From contig NZ_CM001974.1 in assembly GCF_000406105.1 (NCBI RefSeq), forward strand, positions 4,443,050-4,507,049: a stretch of 64,000 nucleotides of DNA. The letters are read 5' to 3'. Origin of the DNA: Dickeya chrysanthemi NCPPB 402 (lineage in GTDB: Bacteria; Pseudomonadota; Gammaproteobacteria; Enterobacterales; Enterobacteriaceae). The notes under the pieces were generated by a model. The model saw only the letters and a list, made by a program, of their open reading frames with translations. It was not told where the DNA came from and searched no databases. How positions within the stretch are numbered: the first letter of the stretch is position 1; the number at the start of each line of letters is the position of its first letter. The translations under genes were made by a program, and so were the position numbers. Below are positions 1 through 28,072 of this stretch, in pieces.

Positions 1-53
1 TGGAAGAGAACAAAATCAGTAATCCCATCACACAAAAATGGCATAAAAATTAG
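1..53 (+). CDS. 3' end of a small secreted protein gene (partial, second copy of 3692-4180)
   Basis: The window opens inside the last codons of a reading frame ending in TAG at 51-53. Its last 17 residues (EENKISNPITQKWHKN and the preceding residue) are identical to the C-terminus of the complete gene at 3692-4180. The match is at nucleotide level and continues downstream, so this is a duplicated copy and not just a related protein. The 5' part lies outside the window, so I cannot tell whether this copy is intact. No function is known. Confidence 0.6.
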   Translation, partial: EENKISNPITQKWHKN

Positions 54-127
54 GACACACGTCATTCTGCAGAAAACGGATGGCTTACGATCAGGGCTGG
101 ATAGCCACACAATCCTATAGCTCGTCC

Positions 128-153
128 AAAAAAACCCCGCCATCAAGGCGGGG
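128..153 (-). terminator. Rho-independent terminator (left copy)
   Basis: The stem CCCCGCC (135-141) pairs with GGCGGGG (147-153) across the loop ATCAA. Read on the minus strand it is followed by a run of seven T. It would stop transcription coming from the methyltransferase gene at 380-1309. The same hairpin ends cpxP in the right copy at 4263-4281. Confidence 0.85.
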
Positions 154-247
154 AAAAAAACAGGGATGGTGTCTATGGCAAGGAAAACAGGTTACTTCTT
201 TAACACACTACTCTCGGCACTACTCTCACTACTCGGAAAAACACGCT

Positions 248-344
248 CTACTCAGTACTCTCATCCTGCCCCTGACGGGACAGTTCCAAATTCTGGCTCT
301 GTGAACCGGACGCCGACATCTGCTGACGCACCGTCTGCATTGCC
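248..344 (-). pseudogene. 3' fragment of cpxP left by the duplication
   Basis: On the minus strand the bases translate to about the last 32 residues of CpxP (from AMQTVRQQMSASG to QDESTE, stop TAG at 248-250). They are near-identical to the end of the full cpxP at 4407-4985, with an R to Q change in QRM. The fragment has no start codon or upstream part. It shows that the segment between the two repeats was added next to cpxP by an event that copied its 3' end. Confidence 0.85.
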
Positions 345-350
345 ACCTTC

Positions 351-376
351 CTGCAACTCGAATTATTTTTGGTATA
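351..376. repeat. Half copy of the intergenic palindromic repeat at the cassette junction
   Basis: The 26-base stretch starting CTGCAACTCGAATTATTTT closely matches the right-hand end of the complete repeats at 20463-20488 and 50820-50845. Only this one end is present. It lies between the truncated cpxP fragment (ends 344) and the stop codon of the methyltransferase gene (380-382), right at the junction of duplicated and unique DNA. Confidence 0.8.
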
Positions 377-379
377 ACA

Positions 380-1309
380 TTACCTTCCAAATATCCGGTT
401 CCAAATACTGGGTTTTAGTTTTTCTAATTCGGCAATATGCTTTTTAAGAGTATCTTGAACATCAATTGCTTCTTTGTAAGCCTTAATATAATGCTCTAAT
501 TGTTTTTCCTTAATTTCATTCGTAATAGCACTAACCGTTTCGTCGTCTGCCTTGAATGGAACAGGTCTAGACAGTTTAGGTTCACCTACTTTTTTTAACT
601 GAATATAGAATTCATCAACACCTTCTATAGGTTCGGAAACCTTAACATTTAAAATACCGAGTTCATTTAGTTCATTAATCACGGCAACAAAACTATCTTT
701 TGTAAACACGGAACAGTGCGCATCGAAATATTGCCCCGTTGTGTAGGAGTTCAGCGTAAAGTTCAGTGCTTCTTCCTTGGTATAATGATGTTCAGAAAAA
801 ATATTCCCGTTCCCGTCTTCTGAAGTAACTTTAGAAAGAAAATCGTAAAGTTGTTTTGTATTTGGTCTTTTATCTTCACTAAGCCATGCATGAATAAGGT
901 CAGAAGTTTCAGAGATACGCCTATTTCTATCGAACGTTTGAGTCTTTTCAGGAAGCGCCAGAGAAAATACCCCCCCTTCATTCATTACCTCAAATACTTC
1001 TAAGAGCCAGCCAATTGGATCAGGAACATGTTCAAGAACATGAGATGCAATAGCCCAATGATATTCAATGCCAACTGGAGTACACTCAGAAAGCTTTTTA
1101 CCTGGAGTCCAAATAAAATCAAGATCCATTATTTCAGGGTGTTCATAATGAGCATGTTTTTCTCTTGAATCTTCTGCACTCGTGTAATCGGTATAATGAA
1201 CATTGTGTATAGACCTATCGGTTGCCGGTCTATATAAAGGAGATATCTCTATACCAACCTCCTGAGTTGGCAAGCTTTTTAATAACAGGTGTTTTTCAAT
1301 AGGTTTCAT
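380..1309 (-). CDS. SAM-dependent methyltransferase with C-terminal coiled coil
   Basis: The 309-residue protein resembles the polysaccharide-cluster class I methyltransferases. An early VGIEISPLYRP segment (about residues 18-28) corresponds to the family's EIGPL motif. ASHVLEHVPDPIGWL near residue 88, followed by a GGVFSLALPEK strand, fits a Methyltransf_11-type core. The last 60 residues are Lys/Glu-rich and predicted helical, likely a coiled coil, ending in SIWNRIFGR. No signal peptide or membrane segment is seen, so it is probably cytosolic. The substrate is unknown; surface sugars are the usual targets of relatives. It is co-directional with the tail-fibre gene and ends at the 128-153 terminator. 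It is A+T-richer than the core genes, consistent with transfer. Start ATG at 1307-1309 was taken as the longest supported. Confidence 0.75.
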   Translation of the reverse strand: MKPIEKHLLLKSLPTQEVGIEISPLYRPATDRSIHNVHYTDYTSAEDSREKHAHYEHPEIMDLDFIWTPGKKLSECTPVGIEYHWAIASHVLEHVPDPIGWLLEVFEVMNEGGVFSLALPEKTQTFDRNRRISETSDLIHAWLSEDKRPNTKQLYDFLSKVTSEDGNGNIFSEHHYTKEEALNFTLNSYTTGQYFDAHCSVFTKDSFVAVINELNELGILNVKVSEPIEGVDEFYIQLKKVGEPKLSRPVPFKADDETVSAITNEIKEKQLEHYIKAYKEAIDVQDTLKKHIAELEKLKPSIWNRIFGR

Positions 1310-1534
1310 CGATATCGTTCCTAAAATTTTTTAAAATCCATTCATTAAAATATGAAAACCGAGCCATGTAGATGGCAGTTCAAATATAGCACTGAGATTT
1401 AGTTAGTTACAGTAAAAAAATTGGGTGATATGACAATAAATGTAGGCTGATGGTAGTGGTCAACTAAAATTGACCACGGCCGCATCTGCCTCATCATGGA
1501 ACAGCAGCTCTGATTCTTGGGCGTCAAACCACAG
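1310..1534. other. Non-coding stretch between methyltransferase and decayed tail-fibre start
   Basis: The stretch is A+T-rich and no credible gene is seen. It contains a perfect 8-base inverted repeat, GTGGTCAA (1456-1463) and TTGACCAC (1470-1477). This could be a weak hairpin or the remains of a mobile-element end; I cannot decide which. Confidence 0.4.
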
Positions 1535-1813
1535 TTATACCAGTGCGGTCGAAGTTTGCTGTAACCCGTGATATAGCGAGTAATTGCATCCCTGGCTTAG
1601 AGCCGAAGCTCTGGTAATCCAGAGTAAACCAAGTGGCCCAACATTGAACCGTTGGTAGCGATAGATGTAGACCGTTGTTGACAATAGGCTGCCACTATCG
1701 CCCCCTATCAGGATAATTTTCAGTGGTTTTTCAGTCGAGATCGACACTGCTAGTTTAATCTCGCCGACATGGATCAACAATTTAAAATATTTGGTACCCA
1801 TTGTTTCTCTCAT
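1535..1813 (-). pseudogene. Degenerate 5' remnant of a second tail-fibre gene
   Basis: The first 40 or so residues (from MGTKYFKLLIHVGEIKLAVSI to GGDSGSLL) align with the N-terminus of the intact tail fibre at 2050-3333 (MSTKYTALLTQVGADRLANAI to GDGGGVLP), including the preceding MR-x-x-M. After that the similarity is lost and no tail-fibre domain remains. The upstream bases (TCTCATCAG, ATTA) also resemble those before the intact gene. It is best read as a decayed, formerly tandem copy, not a functional gene. Confidence 0.65.
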
Positions 1814-2049
1814 CAGGATTATTTGTACAGGGAAAGATCGTAAAATTCACGTATTTTGCTAGCGCGACGAAATAACCTGATATGAATGATGGTATATTTT
1901 ATACAACGTATGAAATATATTTCAGAATGAGTGATTAACATTTTATTTTTTATAAAAATTGGTCCCAACCGCAATAAAACCAATGAGACCAATGAATATA
2001 AAAAATCAACACCAGGAAATCAATTTATAAAAAATAAATATTTAATATA
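1814..2049. other. A+T-rich spacer downstream of the tail fibre
   Basis: Very A+T-rich sequence with no open frame of note. It is the 3' flank of the tail-fibre gene (minus strand). No strong terminator hairpin was seen, so read-through towards the methyltransferase gene is possible. Confidence 0.4.
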
Positions 2050-3333
2050 TTAAATCAAGTATTTAGAAGCCAAAAAAACAAACTTCGCATTGCCTAGCGT
2101 TGCATTACTTGTAGATAATGAAATATAACCTTCATTAACAATAAAAACATCAGAATAATTGTTAGCTATATCAACCCCTGCAGATACATAAGTTGTTATC
2201 TGCTGAGTAGAAATACTATTTTTACTAGCGATCGTCGTGGATAAAAAACCAGCTTCCGTACTACCTTGCCGGATTAATCCACTCATAGTTCTGGCATTTA
2301 ACGGAATTACTCCACTAACAGGAACATCAACTCCTAATGAAGTTTGTGAGGTAGAATAGAGCTGTCTTGCAGGAGTATGCACCTCCCTTCCAAAGACAGA
2401 TAATACGGTAAACTTACCCGCATTGACCGGCACAACCGTCAATAATGCCGATGCGGTATATCCATCCGGCATATTGGTTCCGCTATAAATCTCCGGCAAT
2501 TTGACTGAGGTGGCGTTAACCGCAAGCAAGCCTGACGTCATTGTTACCGGATTATAAATGGCATAAATCCCGACGAACCCTTCATCAGGAACGGTTCCGG
2601 TATCCATTCCTCCAACGCCATTCTTTGCCAGATCGATCGTCTGCCTGAATAAACCTATTCGATATTGGTTTCCCCCCAGAGCAGTTCCAACAATAATCTC
2701 ATCAGCAGTATATGTGGCACTGGAAGAAACGGAGGGAATATTCATCGTGGCATTGCGTGTCATGCCAATCACACCGGAAAATGCGCTCCTTACGCCCAAA
2801 TTCTCGATAAATTGAGCTTTATCCACAATGTCTGCACCATTTTGAGCTTTAGCCAGTTTTCCGTCAGCCATGTTATCCACATACTGCCGACTGGCCAGCA
2901 CCACCGCCGGGTCGATATTCAGCGATACCGCCTGCGCCTGACTAATAGCCACAATCATGCGCACCGTCTGCACGCGGCCCGATCCTTCCTGCATCTGTGG
3001 TTTATAGGTTTCCGGACAGTTGGCTACGGCAATCAAATTATCGTCCGCATCATACAAGCCGATTTCCCGCAGCCAGAATCCACCTTCATTCTCCGGGATC
3101 ACTTGTTCGGCAATAATCTGATTGGCATTAGCAGGGTCGATGCTCAACGAATTAAGCGCGGCACGACGTTTTTCATTGATCAATTTAGTCTGGGTTGCGT
3201 CCGGCGTTGGCAATACACCACCACCATCCCCTACGCCCATCCGGGCGATTTCCAGTTGTTTTCCCAGTGCGATCGCATTAGCCAGCCTGTCTGCTCCCAC
3301 TTGGGTAAGCAAGGCCGTATATTTCGTGCTCAT
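2050..3333 (-). CDS. Phage tail fibre (tail-collar fibre, P2 gpH-type N-terminus)
   Basis: The N-terminal 150 residues carry the tail-collar fibre signature: MSTKYTALLTQVGADRLANA, an INEKRRAALNSL segment, VIPENEGGFWLREIGLYD, LIAVANCPETYKP, and the end of the conserved region around ASRQYVDNM. This part normally anchors the fibre to the baseplate. The C-terminal two thirds (about residues 170-427) is unlike it, low in Cys and rich in Gly/Ser/Thr, as expected for the receptor-binding part. No other structural phage gene and no tail-fibre assembly chaperone lie nearby, so it is an orphan. ATG at 3333 is preferred over the in-frame ATG at 3345 because it matches the family start and has TGAGA upstream. 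It may supply a fibre to a tailocin or prophage elsewhere (inference). Confidence 0.85.
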   Translation of the reverse strand: MSTKYTALLTQVGADRLANAIALGKQLEIARMGVGDGGGVLPTPDATQTKLINEKRRAALNSLSIDPANANQIIAEQVIPENEGGFWLREIGLYDADDNLIAVANCPETYKPQMQEGSGRVQTVRMIVAISQAQAVSLNIDPAVVLASRQYVDNMADGKLAKAQNGADIVDKAQFIENLGVRSAFSGVIGMTRNATMNIPSVSSSATYTADEIIVGTALGGNQYRIGLFRQTIDLAKNGVGGMDTGTVPDEGFVGIYAIYNPVTMTSGLLAVNATSVKLPEIYSGTNMPDGYTASALLTVVPVNAGKFTVLSVFGREVHTPARQLYSTSQTSLGVDVPVSGVIPLNARTMSGLIRQGSTEAGFLSTTIASKNSISTQQITTYVSAGVDIANNYSDVFIVNEGYISLSTSNATLGNAKFVFLASKYLI

Positions 3334-3691
3334 AACATGTCTCATCAGAATTAGCGATAAAGGGGCCCATGCTCAGGCATGGAACACATACCGCCACACT
3401 TGTCGACACACGCTTTTCCAAGCGATTTTAACCCGTTGTGGCAGTATCGGACATTATGCTGACAGGCCAGCAACAGCGCACGCAGCGAGGGTTGGAACAG
3501 CGATAGCACAACAAACCCCGTTCAGTTTTTTATAACTATGGAGATCGGGAAAGTGAATGATGATTAGTAACATCATTGGTATGACAGAAATATCACTCCC
3601 CCAGAAAATAACCGGGCTGAAAATAGCAATTAAGTCAGCACTCATTATTATTTTTCAGACAAAACATGAAGAAAGGTGAAGGAGATAAGAC
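3334..3691. other. Intergenic region between tail fibre and small secreted gene
   Basis: This 358-base region separates divergent genes and should hold both promoters. A minus-strand frame just upstream of the tail fibre reads LRALLLACQHNVRYCHNG and ends about 10 bases before the 3345 ATG. It may be the decayed 3' end of an older gene, but I recognise no family. The right end is A+T-rich with a strong ribosome-binding site, AAGGAGATAAG, before the ATG at 3692. Confidence 0.4.
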
Positions 3692-4180
3692 ATGAAAATG
3701 AATTTTTCATTTCTCTTCCTGGGGCTTATGGCAATAAGCCCCAGTCAGGCAAGCTCATTAACAACGGATAATAATGAAAAAAAACTTGAGGTTGGCTTTG
3801 GTAAACCGACCTACAGGCAAACACTGCACTACCGTAAACTCTATGAGAAAAAACCGTTCCCCGATGCAGAAATATTCTATTACGACAACGGTATTTATAA
3901 AATAATATCGCAAGGTGAAGAACATTATGGTGTTTACGTCATGCAGGGAAATTTTCAGGATCAAACCTATACCATCAGATATATCTCATTGCCTTCTGAA
4001 GACTGGGGGAAAAAGACTGCATTTCATCAACTCACATTCATTCATGGCGACAAAGAAAAGTATTTTATACAAAATGCGATCGTTGAAACGGGAGAGGCAA
4101 TAGCACAACAGAATGGGACTTTTTCCCTGGAAGAGAACAAAATCAGTAATCCCATCACACAAAAATGGCATAAAAATTAG
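3692..4180 (+). CDS. Small secreted protein of unknown function
   Basis: The 162-residue protein has a clear Sec signal peptide (MKMNFSFLFLGLMAISPSQA, cleavage near residue 20) and a mature part without Cys. The mature part is rich in aromatic residues and Lys/Glu, with alternating Y/F patterns suggesting beta structure (FYYDNGIYKIISQGEEHYG). A strong AAGGAG site precedes the ATG. I recognise no family. Its 3' end is duplicated at the left edge of the window, so the gene is part of, or adjacent to, the unit that recombined with the tail-fibre cassette. It could be an envelope protein unrelated to phage, or cassette cargo. The A+T content is higher than that of the core genes. Confidence 0.7.
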   Translation: MKMNFSFLFLGLMAISPSQASSLTTDNNEKKLEVGFGKPTYRQTLHYRKLYEKKPFPDAEIFYYDNGIYKIISQGEEHYGVYVMQGNFQDQTYTIRYISLPSEDWGKKTAFHQLTFIHGDKEKYFIQNAIVETGEAIAQQNGTFSLEENKISNPITQKWHKN

Positions 4181-4253
4181 GACACACGTCATTCTGCAGA
4201 AAACGGATGGCTTACGATCAGGGCTGGATAGTCACACAATCCTATAGCTCGTC

Positions 4254-4281
4254 CAAAAAAAACCCCGCCATCAAGGCGGGG
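4254..4281 (-). terminator. Rho-independent terminator of cpxP
   Basis: CCCCGCC (4263-4269) pairs with GGCGGGG (4275-4281), and the minus strand continues into a run of eight T. It lies about 125 bases downstream of the cpxP stop codon. It also separates cpxP from the convergent secreted gene at 3692-4180. Confidence 0.9.
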
Positions 4282-4330
4282 AAAAAGACAGGGATGGTGT
4301 CTATGGCAAGGAAAACAGGTTACTTCTTTA

Positions 4331-4378
4331 ACACACTACTCTCGGCACTACTCTCACTACTCGGATCTCACTACTCGG
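4331..4378. repeat. Short imperfect tandem repeats (CACTACTC units)
   Basis: Several tandem units of the form CACTACTCTC or CACTACTCGG follow one another between the terminator and the cpxP 3' end. The left copy of the long repeat (about 208-239) has fewer units, so the number has changed since duplication, as expected from replication slippage. Confidence 0.7.
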
Positions 4379-4406
4379 AAAAACACGCTCTACATCGTTA
4401 CGATCA

Positions 4407-4985
4407 TTACTCGGTACTCTCATCCTGCCCCTGACGGGACAGTTCCAAATTCTGGCTCTGTGAACCGGACGCCGACATCCGCTGACGCACCGTCTGCATT
4501 GCCTGCTCATGTTTCTGGTTCAAAACCGATTTCTGCTCCGGCGTCAGCATGTTGTACATCTGGTTGCTCACCCGGGCGATCTCAACCTGACGTGCAATTT
4601 GCGCCTGGACCATTTTGGCGACCTGCGCTTGCACCGCCGGTGCATCAAATTTTTCTGCCGTTATCAGCTGATGCATAATCTCCACATCGTTAGCATCATA
4701 AGCGGGTTGTTCGTGGCGGACTTGCCGCATCAGATCACGCATTTGCTGGCGCTGATGTTCCGTCAACCTCACACCATCAAATATCCCTTGCTGACTCTCC
4801 GTGCGTTTCGTGGCAGAGTCATCGCGATAACAGTTGCCCAGTTCGGGGGCATTGTTTTCGGTGGATAAATTATTTTCGGTGGATAAATTCTCTTTGCCGG
4901 AAAACATGTTTTCAGTCGCCATCGCAGTACCGGTGACCAACATCAGCAGTGAAGTAAAAGATAACGTGATGATGGTGCCCCGCAT
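4407..4985 (-). CDS. cpxP: Periplasmic stress adaptor CpxP
   Basis: CpxP is the Spy-family periplasmic protein that inhibits the CpxA kinase and helps deliver misfolded proteins to DegP. The 192-residue sequence has a signal peptide (about residues 1-23) and the two family motifs LTEHQ (about residue 73) and LTPEQ (about residue 148), separated by long amphipathic helices. It is divergent from cpxRA with a CpxR box between, the classic autoregulated arrangement. It is longer than E. coli CpxP (about 166 aa). The extra length includes an N-terminal LSTENN unit present twice as an exact 18-base duplication, and a low-complexity QSQNLELS tail. GAGGGGTC precedes the ATG. Its 3' end is duplicated at 248-344. 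Confidence 0.92.
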   Translation of the reverse strand: MRGTIITLSFTSLLMLVTGTAMATENMFSGKENLSTENNLSTENNAPELGNCYRDDSATKRTESQQGIFDGVRLTEHQRQQMRDLMRQVRHEQPAYDANDVEIMHQLITAEKFDAPAVQAQVAKMVQAQIARQVEIARVSNQMYNMLTPEQKSVLNQKHEQAMQTVRQRMSASGSQSQNLELSRQGQDESTE

Positions 4986-18392: not shown

Positions 18393-20075
18393 ATGAACGC
18401 GCTAAAAAAAATGAAGCTGGGCACCATGCTAAGTGCAGGATTCGCCCTGGTCATCGTGATCGGTTTGCTGGTAGCGACATTTGGTCGAACCCAACTGGTG
18501 GGGTTAGGTGACGACATCGATCATCTCTCTGCGACCACCCTCACCAACATGATGTTGATTCAGGAAGCCAAAACCGGCTTCGATACCAATTCCCGTCTGG
18601 TGCGCAATATCGCACTGAGTAACGATACCTCGCGCATCGCCAGTGAAAAGCAGCAGATCGACCGGCAGATCGCCCGTAATACCGAAGTGCTGAAACAACT
18701 CTCGGAACGGCTGGATACGCCGGAAACGCGCGATCAGCTCAATCAACTGACGCTGGCGCGCCCGGCTTATCTGCAAGCCTTCAATAAAGCGGTCGCGCTG
18801 GGGATGTCCGATCAGCCGGAACAGCGCAATCAGGCGCGTGAGCTGATTCTCAATGACATGCAAACCGCTCAAAACGGCGTGTTCAAAGCGCTGGACAACA
18901 TGCTCGACTTTCAAAAGAAAGTCACCATGAGCGTGGTGTCGGAGTCGATGCATAATGCCCGCGCCGACGGCACGGTCATGCTGGCGCTGGCGCTGGCCGC
19001 GGCGGTACTCGGCGCGCTGACCGCCTGGCTTATCACCCGTACGGTCAAAGGACAACTGGGCGGCGAGCCGGCTTATGCCGCCGCAGTGGCGCAGCAAATT
19101 TCCGATGGTAATCTGGCCTTTCGGGTCGAACTGCGCGACGGCGATACGAAGAGCGTGCTGGCGGCCATGAACGACATGCGGGAAAAACTGGGGCAAATCG
19201 TCACCCAGGTGCGCCAGAGCAGCGAATCCATTGCGACCGGCGCCAGTGAAATCGCCGCCGGCAGTACCGACCTGAGCCAACGTACCGAAGAGCAGGCCGC
19301 CAGTCTGCAGCAAACCGCCGCCTCCATGGAGCAAATGAGCCAGACCATCCGCCAGAACGGCGATACCGTGCGTACCGCCACCACGCTGGCGCAATCAGCC
19401 AGTTCAACCGCCGCCAAAGGCGGCGAAGCCGTCGGCAACATCGTCCGAACCATGGAAGATATCTCCGCCAGTTCGTACAAAATTGGCGACATTATCAGCG
19501 TTATCGACGGCATCGCCTTCCAGACCAACATCCTGGCGCTCAACGCCGCGGTGGAAGCGGCCCGCGCCGGCGAACAGGGCCGCGGCTTTGCCGTTGTAGC
19601 GGGTGAAGTGCGGAATCTGGCGCAACGCTCCGCCTCCGCCGCCAAAGAAATCAAAGAATTGATTACTGCCAGCGTCGAAAAAGTGGAAATGGGATCAGCG
19701 CAGGTGAGCGAAGCCGGTTCCACTATCGACGAACTGGTGAAGCAGGCGCGCCACGTGGCGGATTTGATCGGCGAAATAGGCGTGACCACCCATGAGCAGG
19801 AATCCGGTATTTCGCAGATTAATGATGCGGTAAACCAGCTTGATCAGGTCACGCAGCAGAACGCCGCGCTGGTGGAAGAGTCGGCCAGCGCCGCCGACAG
19901 CCTGAGCGATCAGGCGGCAAAACTGGTGGAGCTCATGAGCGTCTTCACGACCCAGCATACGGTTAATCACCAACCGCCTACCCTGCAAAGACCGGGGATC
20001 GCACCGAAAAAATCGATGCCGTCCAGGCTGGCGTTGGCGAACGACGCCGGCAGCAGTAACTGGGAACAGTTCTAA
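18393..20075 (+). CDS. Methyl-accepting chemotaxis protein 1
   Basis: This is a 560-residue transmembrane chemoreceptor. TM1 is at about 11-31, then a periplasmic four-helix-bundle-type sensor domain to about 186, TM2 at about 187-208, then a HAMP domain opening with the family-specific LGGEP. The cytoplasmic hairpin contains the hallmark tip [20 protein letters not shown]. Methylation-type Glu/Gln pairs lie in [18 protein letters not shown]. The C-terminus ends NWEQF, matching the xWExF pentapeptide that tethers CheR and CheB, so this receptor can probably recruit the adaptation enzymes itself. The ligand is unknown. An in-frame ATG at 18366 exists, but AAGGA precedes 18393. First of four paralogues. 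Confidence 0.95.
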
Positions 20076-20084
20076 ATTCACCTC

Positions 20085-20112
20085 ACCGCCACGGCAACGT
20101 GGCGGTATTCTT
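20085..20112 (+). terminator. Terminator after chemoreceptor 1
   Basis: ACCGCCACG pairs with CGTGGCGGT across loop GCAA (20085-20106), followed by ATTCTTTC. It is nearly the same stem and position as the terminator after receptor 2 (22553-22580), so the downstream region was duplicated with the gene. Confidence 0.75.
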
Positions 20113-20149
20113 TCAACACATACCGCTCGTCACCTGTCTTATTTCAACT

Positions 20150-20488
20150 TATACCCGTCATACTTCAAGTTGCAGGTGCGTTGGCTTTATTACTCGGCCC
20201 ATCCCTGGGCCTCGCCCTACGGGCCGCAGCGAGCTGCGTTCAAATCTGCTCCCGGCAGATTTGTCGTTCACCCGAATCACTTACCTGAGTAAGCTCATCG
20301 GGATGAAATGAGAGACATCCTGTCTCTCACCAGAGGCCAGCCTTTGGCTGGTCAAATTCGTTCCCGACGAATTTGTCTCTCTCTTGCCGCGTTACAAGGC
20401 TCTATGAGCCTTGCCCTGAAGGGCCAACGCGTTGCGTTGTTCAAAACGCAACGCGTTTTGTCCTGCAACTCGAATTATTTTGGGTATA
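20150..20488. repeat. Hairpin-mosaic intergenic repeat (largest copy)
   Basis: A 339-base element is bounded by inverted ends (20150-20175 begins TATACCCGTCATACTTC; 20463-20488 is the imperfect inverse). Inside, the DNA is a string of back-to-back perfect hairpins: GGCCC/GGGCC (20196-20211), GCCC/GGGC (20214-20224), CGCAGC/GCTGCG (20225-20238), CAAATCTGC/GCAGATTTG (20241-20263), CTTAC/GTAAG inside CCCGA/TCGGG (20271-20302), GAGAGACA/TGTCTCTC (20310-20328), CCAGCC/GGCTGG (20337-20351), CAAATTCGT/ACGAATTTG (20353-20375), CAAGGCTC/GAGCCTTG (20395-20413), GCCCT/AGGGC (20413-20424) and a 13-base stem at 20426-20457. Several modules recur at 50648-50845. It lies downstream of receptor 1. It carries no transposase and is likely a non-autonomous repeat. 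Confidence 0.85.
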
Positions 20489-20587
20489 AACACACTTTTT
20501 TTGAAAAATCCCCTTCATGGTTTAAAAGTCGTCAGCCAATATAAAGTCACGCACATAACTATTATTAATAATCGCTATTCGAGACAA

Positions 20588-20615
20588 TAAAAAACCAACG
20601 GCAATACGTTGATAA
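20588..20615 (+). promoter_or_regulatory. Possible FliA (sigma-28) promoter of chemoreceptor 2
   Basis: TAAA at 20588-20591 and GTTGATAA at 20608-20615 are separated by 16 bases. The flagellar sigma consensus is TAAA-N15-GCCGATAA; here the -10 matches 6 of 8 and the spacer is one base long. It lies about 240 bases upstream of the ATG. This is a weak candidate. Confidence 0.3.
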
Positions 20616-20738
20616 TAAAAACAAAAAATAAAAATTACAATCAGGTAATTTTTTTCGGCTCTTAAGATATAACAAATATTCATCGATTAGATTAATTCCC
20701 TACATCACAAATAACCTGGCATTTTTGATGCCCGTATT

Positions 20739-20764
20739 TATACCCTCAATAATTCGACAAGCGG
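20739..20764. repeat. Half copy of the intergenic repeat end
   Basis: TATACCCTCAATAATTCGA and the following bases resemble the inverted end of the hairpin-mosaic repeats, with no partner end nearby. It sits 90 bases before receptor 2. Confidence 0.5.
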
Positions 20765-20853
20765 GAAAGCAAACAGCGCACCGGCAATCGAGAAATGACA
20801 GGGATATAAGCACCAGCTTGTTGTGATGAAAAATAACATTCGGGGGATAATCC

Positions 20854-22533
20854 ATGAGTATTCTGAAGAATATGAAACTTGCCACCATGCTTGGCGCCGG
20901 TTTCGCCATCGTACTGGTCATCAGCTTTTTTGTTTCTGGGTATGGTCAACTGCAATTACGGCAACAAAGCAGCAATATCAATACGTTGGCTCACGACCAA
21001 CTGGAAGGATTATTGCTGGTGCAGGAGCTGAAAGATAACCTGAACATCCTTGCCATTTCGGTACGCAACCTGACGCTGTTTACCGCACCGGACCAGGTGG
21101 CACAGGAAAAACAACTGATTACCAAAACCATTGCGCGAAACGGCGACATTATTAAACGCATCGGTGAACTGGCAAATTCGCCAAAAGAAAAAACGTTATT
21201 TGATGGCATCAATCAAGTTCGGCCCGCTAGTCTGGCCGCCACACAAAAAGCGATTGCGTTCAGCCAGGAAAATAAGCTGGATGAAGCCAAAGCCGTGATC
21301 ATGAATGAAGTGAAACCCGCGCAGGAAAATTACTTCAAAGCCATCGGTGATATGGTGAGTTACCAGAAAAGCGATACCCGCCGCTCGGCTGACGATGCCG
21401 GCCAGTCTGCCAATTTCGCCGGCGTCCTGATGCTGGTACTCACCGGCCTATCTACCGTACTGGGTATTGCGATCGCCTGGGCGATTACCCGCCGCATCAA
21501 AAAACTGCTGGGCGGTGAACCGGCATACGCTTCCGATATCGCGCGTCAAATTGCCGGTGGTAACCTGACTATCAATGTCGAGCTGCAAGCAGGCGATAGC
21601 TCCAGCCTGCTGGCTGTTATGGAGGATATGCGCGCCAGACTGCGCGGAATTGTGCAGCAGGTACATGATAGCAGTTCGTCTATTTCCACCGGCTCCCGCG
21701 AAATTGCTATCGGCAGCAACGACCTGAGCCGTCGCACCGAAGAACAGGCCGCCAGCGTGCAGGAAACCGCCGCCTCGATGGAGCAAATCAGCCAGACTAT
21801 CCGCCAGAATGGCGACACGGTGCGCGAAGCGGCTCAGCTCGCCACCGCCGCCAGCCAGACGGCGACGAAAGGCAACGACGTGGTACACAATGTTATCAAT
21901 ACCATGGACGACATCAGCACCAGTTCCCGCAAGATTGGCGATATCATTACCGTGATTGACGGCATCGCCTTCCAGACCAATATTCTGGCGCTCAATGCCG
22001 CGGTGGAAGCCGCCCGCGCCGGCGAACAGGGCCGTGGTTTCGCCGTCGTCGCCGGTGAAGTGCGCTCACTGGCGCAACGTTCCGCGTCCGCGGCGCGCGA
22101 AATTAAAGAACTCATCACCACCAGCATGGAAAAAGTGGAAAGCGGCTCCAGACTGGTAGCGCATGCCGGTGAAACCATGTCCGATATCGTCACCCAGGCC
22201 CAGCATGTTGCCGATTTGATTAGCGAAATCGGCGTCACCACCCAGGAACAGGAATCGGGCATTTCGCAAATCAATCAGGCGATTACCCAAATGGACAGCA
22301 TCACCCAGCAAAACGCCGCGCTGGTTGAAGAGTCTGCCAGTGCGGCTGATAGTCTGAGCGAGCAGGCCGAAAAACTGGTGGAACTGATGGGCGTATTCAC
22401 CATTGGGCACACGTCGGCAACACCGCCGCCTCGTCGGCAGAGTCACCCGGCACCCGCCTTGAAAAAACCCGCCGCGGCACCCAGAGCTGCGCTGGCCAGC
22501 AAAGCCAATAACAACGACTGGGAACAATTCTGA
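20854..22533 (+). CDS. Methyl-accepting chemotaxis protein 2
   Basis: A 559-residue paralogue of receptor 1. TM1 is at about 10-30 ([17 protein letters not shown]). The periplasmic helical sensor domain clearly differs in sequence from receptor 1. TM2 is at about 190-211, followed by HAMP with LGGEPAYA and a signalling domain almost identical to receptors 1 and 3 ([25 protein letters not shown] is the only notably changed stretch). The C-terminus ends DWEQF, a CheR/CheB-binding pentapeptide. The conserved output and divergent sensor suggest duplication followed by ligand diversification. ATG at 20854 follows GGGGG. The ligand cannot be deduced. Confidence 0.95.
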
Positions 22534-22552
22534 CGTTTCGTCATCCCCCACC

Positions 22553-22580
22553 AACCGCCACGACAACGTGGCGGTTTTTT
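22553..22580 (+). terminator. Rho-independent terminator after chemoreceptor 2
   Basis: A perfect stem AACCGCCACG (22553-22562) and CGTGGCGGTT (22567-22576) with loop ACAA is followed by T residues. It lies 20 bases after the stop codon. Confidence 0.92.
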
Positions 22581-23108
22581 ATTCCCTTCGCCGATAACGC
22601 CCCCACCGCCCCAGGAAAACATCATAAAGCCGTCACCGCATCAGTCATGCATGAAGAATGGCATTATTCAGGATGAGTTTATTTTTATACCACCACAAAT
22701 ATCATGCCTTTTTGCCACCTATACCCTAAATGATTCGAGTTGCGGAACAACGCGCCACATCGCAGGCACCATGTTTCCCTCATGCATACGTGCCAATCGC
22801 TCCATAATGATTAACAATGTCAATTACTTTAGCGGATGACATTTTTATCATGTAATCAATAGCCTATTTTTATTTCGCTCGTTCTTCCGCATGTTGTCAC
22901 GGTAAACGAGGCGCATACATTTTGTTAAAAAGTTAATTAACTAAAAAATCATTTCTTCACGTAACGATAACAGGTTGAGATCAATTGGTGATGGGCTGTT
23001 TCGGTGGTGGCTTGCTGCCGGCGCCCATCATTAACCCATACACACAGTTCGCCTCACACCAGGGATGCGAAGCTACTTATGACGGCAATACCTAAATAGA
23101 AAAGGCAC
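22581..23108. other. Intergenic region between chemoreceptors 2 and 3
   Basis: No gene is seen. It holds a half copy of the intergenic repeat (22723-22748). A CGATAA core at 22965-22970 with TAAA upstream lies at too long a spacing (17) for a confident FliA promoter. A long-range inverted repeat TGATGGGC/GCCCATCA spans 22989-23030. The ribosome-binding site AAAGG sits just before 23109. Confidence 0.45.
22723..22748. repeat. Half copy of the intergenic repeat end
   Basis: TATACCCTAAATGATTCGAG and the following TTGCGG match the left end consensus of the hairpin-mosaic repeats. No matching second end was found within the intergenic region. Confidence 0.6.
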
Positions 23109-24737
23109 ATGATGCAGATACTAAAAAATATGAAGCTCGGCGCTATGCTCGGATCCGGTTTTATACTGGTGATTCTGATCGGTTTTATCGTCGCGATTTT
23201 CGGGCGCAGCCAGCTGATTCATGTGGGCAATAATCTGGATTACCTGTCCAATATTCGCCTGAATAACCTGATTGCCATGCAGGATATTAAAGACAATCTG
23301 AATGCGGCGGCTCGCATTATTCGGGAAAGCGCGATACAAACCGACGCGACCCACCTCGCTCAGGGAAAACACGAACTCGAACAGCTTATCGACCGCAACA
23401 ATACGTTGCTCCAGTTGCTGGATGAAAAACTGAAGCTGAAAAAGTCACGTGAATTGCTGGCGCAGGTCAATCAGGCGCGCCCGCCCTATTCCGCTGCGGT
23501 GCGAAAAGTCATGGATTTGAGTCTCACCGGCCAGCAGGAACAAGCCCGTGCGTTGATTCTGGGCGATCTGCTGACGACGCAAACGACGCTGTTCAACGCG
23601 ATGGACACCATGATCACCGAACACAAGAATGATACCGTTGCCATGTCCCAGCGTTTCATGGACGATGCCCGCGACTCCGGCACCCTGCTATTGATTGTCA
23701 CCGCCATCAGCGCACTGCTGGCGGTGGTCGTCGCCTGGCTGATTACCCGCCGGGTCAAGACGTTGCTGGGCGGCGAGCCGGCCTATGCTTCACATATCGC
23801 CCAGCAGGTCGCGCAGGGTGATTTATCGGTGGATGTCGCGCTGCAAACCGATGATCGCAATAGCCTGCTGGCCGCGATGCGCACCATGCGCGACAGCCTC
23901 AGCCATATCGTCAATCAGGTCCGCCAAAGCAGCGAATCCATCGCCGCCGGGTCGCAGCAAATCGCTATCGGGAATGCCGATCTCAGCCAGCGCACGGAAG
24001 AGCAAGCCGCCAGTCTGCAACAAACCGCCGCGTCGATGGAGCAGATTAGCCAGACCATCCGCCAGAACGGTGAAACGGTGCGTGAAGCCGCCCAGCTCGC
24101 CACCACCGCCAGCCAGACCGCCGCTAAAGGCAGTGATGTGGTGAGCGCCGTTATCCACACCATGGAAGAGATTACCAACAGTTCGCGTAAAATCGGCGAT
24201 ATTATCAGCGTTATCGACGGCATCGCCTTTCAGACCAATATTCTGGCGCTGAATGCGGCGGTGGAAGCCGCTCGTGCCGGCGAACAGGGCCGTGGCTTCG
24301 CGGTGGTAGCCGGAGAAGTGCGTTCGCTGGCGCAGCGCTCCGCCTCTGCCGCCAGAGAAATCAAAGAACTGATCACCGAAAGTATGGAAAAAGTGGAAAG
24401 CGGCTCGCAGCGTGTCGGCCATGCCGGCGTCACCATGCAGGAGATTGTTGCTCAGGCTCGCCACGTCGCTGACCTAATCAGGGAAATAGGCGTCACCACC
24501 AGCGAACAGGAATCCGGCATCGGCCAGATCCATCAAGCCGTCAGCCAGCTCGATCAGGTCACCCAACAGAACGCCGCACTGGTAGAACAATCCGCCGACG
24601 CCGCCGACAGTCTGAACGCTCAGGCCAGTCATCTGGTGCAGTTGATGAATGTGTTCATCCTCGCCGGTCATGCTGGCCAGACTCAGCGCACATCGCATAA
24701 CAACGGTGCCTTACGCCTGGCGTTGGCGTCACGCTAA
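23109..24737 (+). CDS. Methyl-accepting chemotaxis protein 3
   Basis: A 542-residue chemoreceptor. TM1 is at about 12-32, then a periplasmic sensor with many charged helices ([25 protein letters not shown]), TM2 at about 192-212, a HAMP beginning [15 protein letters not shown], and a signalling domain with the canonical tip [20 protein letters not shown]. Unlike receptors 1 and 2 it ends ALRLALASR and lacks the WExF pentapeptide. It would therefore depend on neighbouring receptors for efficient methylation, like low-abundance receptors in E. coli. Either of two adjacent ATGs (23109 or 23112) could start it. Ligand unknown. Confidence 0.95.
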
Positions 24738-24832
24738 CCACCGCATAAGCGGCATGTCGACCACATCATCGGGGAGGCGGAAAACATGCCGGCTCCCCGA
24801 ATCATTGCGCGCACGTAGCGGCAGTCTGACCA

Positions 24833-25741
24833 TTAAACCTGCACATCAATCGATATCTGGCCTGCGGCATTAGCCGTCAGGTCAATGCTGATGTCTGCTC
24901 CGCCTTGAGTCATGCTCATCTCCTGAGCCGTCTTCTCGGTATCGGCAAGCGCCTGGTTGATCGCCTGCATGTACTTCTGGGCTTCCTGGTCGCCGTTTCT
25001 GACTGCATTTTTTACCATCGCAAGCAGCGATTTCAGCTCGCGCACGGCATCCTGCACCGATTTTGCGTCCTCCCGACGCTGCGACGTACCGCTCCCCCGT
25101 TCACTGAGCGCCGCCGCCACATTCTGCCAGTGCTCCGCTTCCTGCGCAGAGGCGTCTTCACCGTTTTTTGCCGCCGACGCCGCACCGCCGGCATCTTCCC
25201 CTCTATCGAATCCGGCAGAAGTATTATCACTCACCGCGGCATCGGCCATAGCGCCGGAAAGTCCGGAGGTATCGCCGTCGTTTTCTGCTGCAACGCCTGA
25301 GGCATTTTCTCCTCCCGCCCCGCCTGCCGTAACGGCCGCTGCCATACCGCCCCCGCCGCCTTCGTTCAATGTGTTCGCCGCCTGACCCAGTTCTCTGGCC
25401 AACTGGCGGATTTCGCGCATTATACCGGGCGGCACCGCCTGACCGGCCAGCGACAGCAGCATCATCTTCAGCATCTGGATACGTCGCTTGATTTGCTCAA
25501 TCCGCCCGCGCGCCAAATCCTGGTCGGCGTTGTCGAGCTTGCTCATATTAACCCGCATCGCGGCATCAATACGCTTACGCACCTCGTCGCTGAATTGCAC
25601 CAGCACAGAGGTGAACGACTGCTGCTCGCGGGATGTATCAGCTTCGGTGCCGGCCTGCGCCGTGCCAGCGTCACTATCGGTTCCTGCATACGGCGCTGAC
25701 GAGCCCGCAACAGTACGGTTGAAAGAAATGGGAGATGTCAT
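24833..25741 (-). CDS. Cys-free Ala/Gly-rich protein of unknown function
   Basis: The 302-residue product has no signal peptide, no membrane segment and no cysteine. Residues about 45-130 are a charged, strongly helical region (VRKRIDAAMRVNMSKLDNAD, IEQIKRRIQMLKMMLLSLAG). A low-complexity Gly/Ala/Asn/Asp/Ser-rich linker follows (about 135-200), then another helical region (VQDAVRELKSLLAMVKNAV) and a short amphipathic end ISIDVQV. ATG at 25741 has AGGAC upstream; a longer frame opens at 25774. It is transcribed against the chemoreceptors on both sides and lies between receptors 3 and 4. Composition (acidic, Gly-rich, no Cys) resembles that of harpins or other secreted, unfolded proteins, but no motif supports this. 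Function unknown. Confidence 0.7.
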   Translation of the reverse strand: MTSPISFNRTVAGSSAPYAGTDSDAGTAQAGTEADTSREQQSFTSVLVQFSDEVRKRIDAAMRVNMSKLDNADQDLARGRIEQIKRRIQMLKMMLLSLAGQAVPPGIMREIRQLARELGQAANTLNEGGGGGMAAAVTAGGAGGENASGVAAENDGDTSGLSGAMADAAVSDNTSAGFDRGEDAGGAASAAKNGEDASAQEAEHWQNVAAALSERGSGTSQRREDAKSVQDAVRELKSLLAMVKNAVRNGDQEAQKYMQAINQALADTEKTAQEMSMTQGGADISIDLTANAAGQISIDVQV

Positions 25742-26434
25742 GCGAAGTCCTGTGCCGTGTCTGTCATGATCCATCAGTAAAAATTAAGCATGGGTGCCAT
25801 CAGACACCCTCAGGCAGAATTTTTCTGACATATATTGAAACATAACGGCACCACACCCGCCGTCTTTAGGCCCGATGGATTCACAACCGGTCAGACGCCG
25901 CCAAAAACCACTTAATATATTGATATTAAAATAAAAATACCGAGTGATTTTTACAAATAACCCAGGTAGGTATCTCTCCCTCGGCCATACAAAAATTTGC
26001 GATTAGACAAAACACCATTCTCCACACATAGTTAAGCCATCAGCTGAAGAAATAACCATCACGGAAGTGACATTCAGCCCAACGGCATCCATCAGGATGA
26101 CACTTTACGCTGATCCCCACACTTTTCTGCCCTCCATCGTGTAGTTATGCGTGTGACGGCTCAACACCAGTGCAAACGCTTATTCAACAAGCGTGACAGC
26201 AAGCGATGTAACCGTGTTTTTTATCACGGGTAACACTCTATTTCTGACACTTAGAGCCATTTAATGGACCATGGCTCCGGGGGGTGTTTTCTCTGAAATA
26301 CCTGGTATCCGCTCGATGCCTGTATGAAAAAACATGGTGGACGTTAACGGGTATGCCGGCATCTGCACGACCAACAGGCCGCTATATACCTTCATTCTGG
26401 CTAAGACCGTTGCATCACACAGGCAGGGGATATT
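25742..26434. other. Intergenic region before chemoreceptor 4
   Basis: Nearly 700 bases with no open frame of note on either strand. It must contain the promoters of two divergent genes. I saw no clear sigma-28 promoter, operator or strong hairpin. The ribosome-binding site GGGGAT precedes the ATG at 26435. Confidence 0.4.
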
Positions 26435-28072
26435 ATGAACACTCTCAATAACATGAAATTGAGCACCATGCTCGCTTCCAGCTTCGCCATCGTCATACTG
26501 ATTGGCTTTATCGTTGCGGGATTCGGCCGCATACAGCTCTGGCAGTTAAGCAGCAACATTCATGATTTATCAGACAACAGGGTGCCTAAACTGATCATGA
26601 TGGAGACCTATCAAAGCAACATCATGACGGTATCCAACGCGGCGCGCGATTTAGTGTTGTCATCTGACCCGTTACAGAAGCAAGCGGAAAAACAGCGGAT
26701 TGATGAGGCGGTTGCCAACAGCACAGCCCTGCTTCAGCGCTACAACACAGTGACGGCCTCATCCGAAGCGAAGGCGCTATTAAAAGCACTGGAAGATGCA
26801 CGGCCAGCCGCCATCACCGCGCTGAAAAAAGTGATTGAGCTTGGCCTTGCTAACCGCACTGAAGAAGCCAGAAACGTCATTCTCAACGACTTTAAACCGG
26901 CACAGGTTAAGCTGATGGGGGCAATCGACGACATCATCATCTACCAAAAGAATAAAACCAATGAGTTAGCTGCCGGTTCGGTAGAACTGGCTAGCGATTC
27001 GGGCAACATCATGTTTTTGTTGACCATGATGGCGCTAGTATTAGGCAGCCTGATTGCCTGGTTCATTACCCGACAGGTAAAAGGTAAGCTCGGCGGCGAA
27101 CCGGCTGAAGCGGCGTATATCGCACAGCAAATCGCGCAGGGCAATCTGGCCATCAACATCGCACTGAAAGAAAACGACACCCGCAGCGTGCTGGCCGCTA
27201 TTGAGGTAATGCGCCAGAATTTATGCCACATCGTTGATCAGGTGCGCCAGAGCAGTTATTCCATCGCGCTGGGTTCGAATGAAATCGCTAGTGGCACCAG
27301 TGATTTGAGCCAACGCACCGAGGAGCAAGCCGCCAGCCTGCAACAAACGGCGGCGTCAATGGAGCAGATCAGCAATGCCGTTACTCACAATGTTGAGATA
27401 GTCAAACACGTCACCGACCTGGCCAATACCGCGACGCAAACCGCGCAAACCGGTAATGAGATGTTCAGCCAGGTCATCACGATGATGAACGATATCAGGA
27501 GCAGTTCGCAAAAAATTGTCGATATTATTCAATTCATTAACAGTATTGCTTTTCAAACCAACATTCTGGCGTTAAACGCCGGCGTGGAAGCGGCACGGGC
27601 AGGAGAAGAAGGGAAAGGCTTTGCGGTCGTCGCCCATGAAGTACGCTCACTGGCGCAGCACTCCGCCAGCGCCGCCCACGACATCAACACCCTGATTACC
27701 GAAAGTGTACAAAAAATTGCGGCAGGCGCGGAGCTCGTTACTCACGCCGGCGGCACGATGGGCAATATTCTGGAACAAACGCGTCAGGTTGCTCACTTAA
27801 TTAATGAAATCAGCCTCTCGACCAGCGAACAGCAACTGGGTATTTCGCAAATCAATACGGCGGTCGCCCAGCTTGATCAGGTCACGCATCAAAACGCCGC
27901 ACTGGTGCAGGAATCCGCCACCGCGACAGACAGCCTCAGCAGCCAGGCCACACATCTGGTTGATTTGATTAAAGTGTTTATCGTCGAAGACATGATTTCC
28001 CGCCAGCGACTCGATATGGTCACACAGGATCAGGTCGTCAATATGGACAGCAATCAGGTGATTATGCACTGA
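26435..28072 (+). CDS. Methyl-accepting chemotaxis protein 4 (divergent signalling tip)
   Basis: A 545-residue chemoreceptor with TM1 (about 10-30), a helical periplasmic sensor, TM2 (about 190-210), HAMP (LGGEPAEAAYIAQQI) and a signalling domain. It departs from its three neighbours in normally invariant places. IDGIAFQ is [22 protein letters not shown] is [22 protein letters not shown] is VVAHEVR, and the [12 protein letters not shown] stretch is VTHNVEIVKHVT. The CheA/CheW contact residues (NILALN, VEAAR) are kept. It ends NMDSNQVIMH with no CheR-binding pentapeptide. It is still likely a functional receptor, possibly with altered kinase coupling. Confidence 0.93.
   Translation: MNTLNNMKLSTMLASSFAIVILIGFIVAGFGRIQLWQLSSNIHDLSDNRVPKLIMMETYQSNIMTVSNAARDLVLSSDPLQKQAEKQRIDEAVANSTALLQRYNTVTASSEAKALLKALEDARPAAITALKKVIELGLANRTEEARNVILNDFKPAQVKLMGAIDDIIIYQKNKTNELAAGSVELASDSGNIMFLLTMMALVLGSLIAWFITRQVKGKLGGEPAEAAYIAQQIAQGNLAINIALKENDTRSVLAAIEVMRQNLCHIVDQVRQSSYSIALGSNEIASGTSDLSQRTEEQAASLQQTAASMEQISNAVTHNVEIVKHVTDLANTATQTAQTGNEMFSQVITMMNDIRSSSQKIVDIIQFINSIAFQTNILALNAGVEAARAGEEGKGFAVVAHEVRSLAQHSASAAHDINTLITESVQKIAAGAELVTHAGGTMGNILEQTRQVAHLINEISLSTSEQQLGISQINTAVAQLDQVTHQNAALVQESATATDSLSSQATHLVDLIKVFIVEDMISRQRLDMVTQDQVVNMDSNQVIMH

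Follow-up and report, generated by a model that had tools for sequence, protein, structure and literature searches.

We analysed 64,000 nucleotides of Dickeya chrysanthemi NCPPB 402 (contig NZ_CM001974.1, positions 4,443,050 to 4,507,049 of the forward strand; hereafter, the window), the first kilobases of which hold one end of a row of phage tail-fibre genes. This fibre array is bounded by fieF and a NUDIX gene on one side and by cpxP on the other, and the window contains the cpxP end. The explanation that we favour, with moderate confidence, is that the array is a domesticated bank of fibres, supplied in trans and switched on together with a distant tailocin of the P2D1 type; its activation in vivo and the docking of its products onto the particle are what we infer here. 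Published work is cited from the accessible parts of each source.

The array is present in every Dickeya genome that we compared (nine including this one, G000 to G008, one genome per species; G005 is D. oryzae ZYY5). In all nine, fibre genes occupy the interval between fieF and cpxP, which lie on one contig at a distance of 5.2 to 12.7 kb. From G000 to G008 the array fibre open reading frames (ORFs) with a readable start number 2, 4, 1, 4, 5, 5, 5, 4 and 6 (36 in total); two more fibre genes of this genome, cut by gaps, stand outside the 36. A sequence-only reading of the window had suspected that further fibre cassettes lie to its left, and they do: left of the assembly gap that borders the window there are three further fibre genes, two of them cut by gaps, together with chaperone-like ORFs, and all fibre genes run on the same strand as far as the NUDIX gene and fieF. 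Two scaffold gaps of 100 N in that region (L010 5487-5586 and 6901-7000) each interrupt the N-terminal part of a fibre gene, and repeats shared by the fibres probably broke the assembly at both. By ORF reading, the Dickeya arrays consist of fibres, chaperone-like genes (with a Caudo_TAP match in three out of three tested) and few others; two transposase-like ORFs were recognized by eye in one array. The same reading revealed in the arrays no sheath, tube or baseplate genes, no integrase, capsid, replication or packaging genes or other set typical of a P2-like prophage, and no site-specific recombinase or invertase, the last being judged from ORF starts by eye and not from a family search.

Upstream of the array fibres we found a common signal, consisting of TTGTGCCAT..., then ACAA and, 32-33 bp further on, CATAAT, i.e. 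a box of the form TTGT-N12-ACAA and a -10 element. Within 260 nt upstream, 35 of the 36 array fibres have the box with at most two mismatches and CATAAT with at most one, 32-33 bp apart. The exception is the slot D gene of G003, the one intact slot D gene (slots, lettered A to E, are positions in the array, E being next to cpxP). The same criteria were satisfied by 161 of 10,800 first-order random resamples of the array upstream stretches and by none of 40 control ORF upstreams from the same window. Conservation peaks at the box and at the -10 element and is mostly low in the spacer. A strict version of the pattern occurs 15 times in seven of the nine genomes, always inside the array (G000 and G002 have variant forms only), and in a sample of 246 genomes of the family it was absent from all 243 that are not Dickeya.

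The box resembles the activator sites of phage P2, whose Ogr-dependent late promoters have the literature consensus TGT-N12-ACA (PMC3931495). The four annotated sites of P2 show one or two mismatches to it and are centred at -55.5 or -56.5 from the start site. Compared with them, the activator box of the slot E fibre in the window, TTGTGCTATCGCTGTTCCAA (3492..3511, minus strand), is close to the P2 pF site TTGTGCTGTCGATTAGCCAA; it lies 33 bp from its -10 element CATAAT (3453..3458, minus strand). The position of the array boxes, at about -55, is deduced from the -10 match and the annotated starts of P2. The array fibres very probably belong to an Ogr regulon of the P2 late type.

An activator of this kind is found with the tailocin. 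All nine genomes contain a P2D1-type tailocin cluster, with gpJ 92-100% identical to that of this genome, and an Ogr scoring over the cut-off. In eight of them Ogr is encoded 12-13 kb from the tailocin fibre and on the same strand; in the ninth, G007, the tailocin fibre is at a contig end and Ogr is on another contig. Five genomes (G000, G003, G005, G007 and G008) have this one Ogr only. In this genome Ogr follows a gpD-like ORF (gpD by position), as in P2, and in the three loci read the CX2CX22CX4C motif of Ogr (PMC3931495) is intact and P2 Ogr-like. The tailocin has boxes of its own: the sheath gene is preceded by TTGTGCCAT with 1-2 mismatches in all six loci in which its start was found (eight loci were scanned, and the short search string was not found in two), and the tailocin fibre has the box, the 33-bp spacing and CATACT within 260 nt in seven genomes and just beyond in G003, i.e. 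in eight of nine. In D. dadantii, mitomycin C raises the transcripts of the tailocin fibre, sheath and tube (PMC12297226; the passages concerned do not mention array genes). An Ogr-bearing tailocin has been described in Burkholderia (PMC5411513). Plausibly, array and tailocin share one switch.

The array might instead serve P2-like prophages or infecting P2-like phages, either by supplying fibres in trans or by satellite-like interference. This would agree with the P2 late-type promoters of the array, with the closeness of some array stretches to resident P2-like prophages (for example, 89% at the DNA level over 625 nt in G004) and with the precedent of P4 for trans-activation by Ogr (PMC7552001). 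However, a P2-like prophage fibre locus exists in just four of the nine genomes, and the single Ogr of five genomes scores like the tailocin-linked ones, so we consider this alternative unlikely. The four P2-like prophage fibres all lack an Ogr-type promoter of their own.

Two further features of the tailocin fibre region were seen. A serine recombinase of the Resolvase family is encoded there in eight of the nine loci (L039 15314-15889; L040-L045 and L047), the ninth being at a contig end; we take this enzyme to be Hin/Gin-like, and its presence suggests fibre inversion in Dickeya tailocins. In this genome, a gene for a phytase-like secreted protein and an ORF resembling the major facilitator superfamily (by eye) lie inside the same region (L039 11132-13990).

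In a tree of the fibre N-terminal domains (N-domains; 52 rows), the fibres group mostly by array position rather than by genome. Slot E is a single clade to which each of the nine genomes contributes one fibre (support 98/93), and the tailocin fibres form a separate clade of nine rows (support 99/94). Exceptions come from G003, whose slot C gene (5383) is placed beside the A/B group and whose slot B gene (3889) is placed with A and D. Slots B and C hold several genes per genome in some species. Species do differ in the number of fibre ORFs, which ranges from one to six, but most slots are orthologous and of long standing. Another orphan fibre site was seen in G006 (L052 7485-9998), where a lone slot A-type fibre of 812 aa, with its own Ogr-type box (two mismatches), lies by a dsbB-like ORF (by eye).

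The tips of the fibres are shuffled between array slots. A tip is common to slot B of G001 and slot C of G004 (94% over 234 aa, with N-domains at 68%), another to slot E of G001 and slot B of G004 (92% over 140 aa), and a third to slot D of G003 and slot C of G005 (82% over 258 aa). We also compared 47 of 120 listed database relatives (7,998 of 8,000 scored passed the threshold). The slot E N-domain of this genome is 100% identical to three D. chrysanthemi proteins (P0001-P0003 of the relatives P0001-P0007 from this species, P0004 being the window's own). The N-domains of P0006 and P0007 are 97-99% identical to those of P0001-P0005, and their tips have no detectable match to the tips of P0001-P0005.

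The array N-domains are under purifying selection. The median ratio of nonsynonymous to synonymous substitution rates (dN/dS) is 0.073 in slot A (10 of 10 pairs), 0.078 in slot B (18 of 36), 0.083 in slot C (56 of 66) and 0.076 in slot E (19 of 36), and 0.063 in the tailocin fibre (34 of 36); pairs whose dS was undefined or at least 1.5 were excluded, and some of the pairs in slots B and C come from the same genome.

The interval between fieF and cpxP is usually short in the rest of the family. In a family sample of 69 genomes, this one among them, cpxP was found in 41 and fieF in 36 at the thresholds used; leaving aside six with cpxP only and one with fieF only, both genes occur in 34 genomes besides this one, and in 27 of these the spacing is 151 to 1702 bp. 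Of the remaining seven, three have the genes on different contigs, and the others have them 3.6 kb (G056), 9.2 kb (G065), 27.6 kb (G022) and 99 kb (G042, on opposite strands) apart. Four of the family loci were read (fibre sites elsewhere were outside this reading): those of G030, G056 and G065 have no fibre, and that of G022, a neighbour genome, holds a single isolated fibre and a truncated P2-like prophage, the integrase of which abuts cpxP. The ends of this prophage share no stretch of at least 12 nt (right end compared with L053). A P2-type prophage, Wphi1, is located at cpxP-fieF in E. coli W (PMC3032704), and in an O157 strain a prophage separates the two genes (PMC7609406), which makes a prophage origin of the array likely. 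The chromosomal site is the same, but the E. coli prophages are described in single strains, whereas the Dickeya array is genus-wide and made of fibres.

These prophages in E. coli W and the O157 strain, the integrase-bearing remnant beside cpxP in G022, and examples of fibre decay (the slot D relic here, a fragment in G002 and a short gene in G001) could also mean that the array is a prophage graveyard, that is, a collection of functionless fibre leftovers of P2-like prophages at a hot integration site. We judge this improbable. The N-domain dN/dS of about 0.08, like that of the tailocin fibre, speaks strongly against it, as do the retention of the promoter in 35 of 36 fibres and the orthology of slot E in nine of nine genomes.

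Several observations weigh against the fibre-bank explanation. With loose settings the promoter motif is also found eight times in the remaining 57.5 kb of the window, on both strands; the -10 elements of P2 itself differ from CATAAT; the sheath -10 element, CACTAT, is poorer; and the tailocin fibre of G004 lacks such a box. Four of the nine genomes hold further Ogr genes, most of them near P2-like prophage fibre loci, and these could be the real partner. The array N-domains are just 69-75% identical to that of the tailocin fibre and 67-74% to those of P2-like prophages, values so nearly equal that sequence alone cannot choose between tailocin and prophage, and array tips and tailocin loci have no more than about 70% in common. 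Finally, mass spectrometry (MS) of eight gel bands of P2D1 from D. dadantii identified six phage-related proteins, all from the 22-kb cluster (PMC10719855). The accessible part of that report, which concerns one strain and visible bands only, names no array fibre in the particle, and this is direct evidence against array fibres as major parts of the particle in that strain. On balance, array fibres would still be somewhat more expected to dock onto the tailocin than not to.

Under the fibre-bank explanation, the array probably descends from the fibre-encoding end of P2-like prophages integrating at cpxP-fieF. The fibre row would then have been domesticated and become fixed between fieF/NUDIX and cpxP in the sampled Dickeya, with nearly every fibre gene retaining a late promoter of the Ogr type for itself and a docking domain that is conserved. 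Upon induction of the P2D1-type tailocin, its Ogr activator would turn on the array too, and the baseplate of the tailocin would be able to receive array fibres in trans in place of the tailocin's own fibre. Later, part of the cpxP end of the array would have been duplicated, one junction falling at a 5-bp microhomology between cpxP and a dispersed, presumably ERIC-like, element. An extended version, in which one Ogr signal and a remote bank of 1-6 fibres produce multi-fibre tailocins, with mixed-target particles, and glycan-type methyltransferases occasionally acquired by the array (those of this genome and of G002) change the producer's surface and so act as fibre-specific immunity, seems to us doubtful.

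The duplication consists of two copies of one segment, at 1..344 and 4128..4503 of the window, which align end to end with four substitutions and three indels (14, 17 and 1 nt) and first differ at base 105. Their match is far above chance (E-value 3e-151 in a search within the genome, where 40 of 158 first-look candidates were scored); among the matches listed, they are the sole long mutual match, and the other within-genome ones are 30-43-nt pieces of a dispersed repeat. Each copy comprises the final 16 codons of a gene for a 162-aa protein (plus strand), the cpxP terminator with a CpxQ-like region, and the final 34 codons of cpxP (minus strand). The right copy has the gene order seen in relatives and, as the sequence-only reading had it, runs on into both full genes; the assembly yielded no other full-length copy of the 162-aa gene. 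That reading also saw the repeats as bracketing a methyltransferase and tail-fibre genes: the repeat and the methyltransferase are real, but just one fibre gene between the copies is intact. Similarly, the left copy does stop inside cpxP at its right end, but what had looked like its other end is a scaffold gap, 100 N immediately preceding base 1 and hiding the true beginning.

On its right, the left copy stops at TTGCC, bases that cpxP has in common with a dispersed element, a truncated end of which lies at 340..378. TTGCC is also read at the same point in other copies of this element, which we take to be ERIC-like and for which the search within the genome listed about 40 partial matches. 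This end looks like a single illegitimate junction at a 5-bp microhomology and not like a cassette border. At the fieF-cpxP loci of the other eight genomes the segment matches once at length (with additional 27-51-nt pieces in some), and the array is present nevertheless, so we reject the direct repeats of about 0.35 kb as borders of cassettes and see no support for them as ends of an amplifiable unit. The duplication with the methyltransferase, found in one of the nine genomes, is a later local rearrangement of the cpxP end of the array, a by-product. An assembly artefact at repeats and the scaffold gap could be suspected behind the duplication at 1-4503, given that base 1 directly follows 100 N and that the left junction is inside a repeat with those numerous partial matches; however, the copies differ by substitutions and indels, and the copy, the junction and the methyltransferase all lie within one gap-free stretch, which makes such an artefact quite improbable. 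Inter-fibre terminators were also considered as integration scars and rejected: they resemble the cpxP terminator in the stem-loop only, and the flanks differ.

The methyltransferase gene between the copies (380..1309, minus strand) encodes a class I S-adenosylmethionine-dependent enzyme of 309 aa (Pfam Methyltransf_23) and is present in this genome only among the nine. Its relatives are found in Plesiomonas, Yersinia and other Dickeya, and there are hints, short of proof, that the relative in D. dianthicola shares a locus with two slot E-like fibres. The gene had zero matches in 50,697 phage records, which led us to reject it as phage cargo, and no PADLOC match as a known defence gene. Nor does it appear to be under an Ogr-type promoter, having no box directly upstream; a poor one (2 + 1 mismatches) is upstream of the slot D relic. 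An unrelated, FkbM-type methyltransferase is encoded inside the fibre array of G002 (L032 5262-6314); it matches V. cholerae RfbT just above the Pfam cut-off and, weakly, mad2 of PADLOC (E-value 2.5e-4). As a guess, array methyltransferases modify the producer's own surface as self-protection.

The two fibre sequences between the copies are the slot D relic, a decayed fibre N-terminus (1535..1813, minus strand) with no Pfam match and without a good Ogr-type promoter, and the intact slot E gene (2050..3333, minus strand), which encodes 427 aa from the inferred start (the ORF is listed as 2050-3345). The slot E fibre matches Pfam Phage_tail_fib with an E-value of 4.9e-62, and its PF12571 N-terminal domain scores 208.8 bits against a cut-off of 23; the domain recurs throughout the array. 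The 162-aa protein (3692..4180, plus strand), putatively secreted and with no family assigned, is encoded beside cpxP in four of the nine genomes; homologues 60-80% identical to it are found on 47 Pantoea plasmids of the collection. The right border of the array is cpxP itself (4407..4985, minus strand).

Downstream of cpxP lies the CpxQ-like segment with the cpxP terminator (4252..4317, minus strand), and the second copy of this 3' untranslated region with its terminator is downstream of the methyltransferase gene (124..190, minus strand; the limits of both are approximate). The name CpxQ for the cpxP 3' end is taken from PMC4817254. A 27-nt core of the region is invariant in seven of seven aligned sequences from six genomes, including the duplicated copy. 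Rfam gave matches below the gathering score only (Hrs1 and others), and we claim no RNA family. In Erwinia, Hrs1 is listed as lying between these two border genes, cpxP and fieF (PMC4070566), a position that fits CpxQ; the Rfam match here, however, is on the opposite strand. Elsewhere in the window, 19021-27730 contains four copies of a repeat unit of more than 300 nt, 2.3-3.3 kb apart, with a chemoreceptor-like stretch of 10 residues (by eye), and is probably a row of chemoreceptor genes.

The array has features in common with several known systems. Dickeyocin P2D1, the P2-type tailocin of D. dadantii 3937 (PMC10719855), shares with it the fibre N-domain family and the Ogr-type box and spacing; the array, in contrast, is elsewhere in the chromosome, has no sheath, tube or baseplate gene seen, and is not represented among the fibres named in the accessible particle MS. 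The late operons of P2 with Ogr and the satellite P4 (PMC3931495, PMC7552001) use the same box, TGT-N12-ACA, near -55, and trans-activation across elements, whereas the ORF reading of the Dickeya arrays revealed no replication, packaging or integrase gene. The carotovoricin fibre locus of Pectobacterium (inversion, genus-wide exchange; PMC13195805) is alike in the variable fibres of a soft-rot tailocin and in fibre recombination, but its variable genes are inside the tailocin cluster, while the Dickeya array genes are apart and have their own promoters. This genus-wide recombination and the movement of tips between array slots would suit silent donor cassettes, with array tips recombining into the tailocin fibre gene, a very improbable role given that no array tip matches a tailocin fibre at 70% identity over 90 aa and that promoters in 35 of 36 fibres, as well as chaperones, would be needless for it. 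In the accessible literature (subscription titles were mostly outside its scope) we found no description of a Dickeya fibre array at cpxP or of a tailocin fibre bank acting in trans.

The targets of a tailocin are usually predicted from the fibre gene that its own cluster contains. Should a conserved bank elsewhere in the chromosome respond to the same activator, the killing spectra predicted for Dickeya would be incomplete, and the maintenance of several targeting options under selection in one bacterium would become directly testable. The array would then also represent a domesticated relative of P2/P4 trans-activation that supplies fibres and nothing else.

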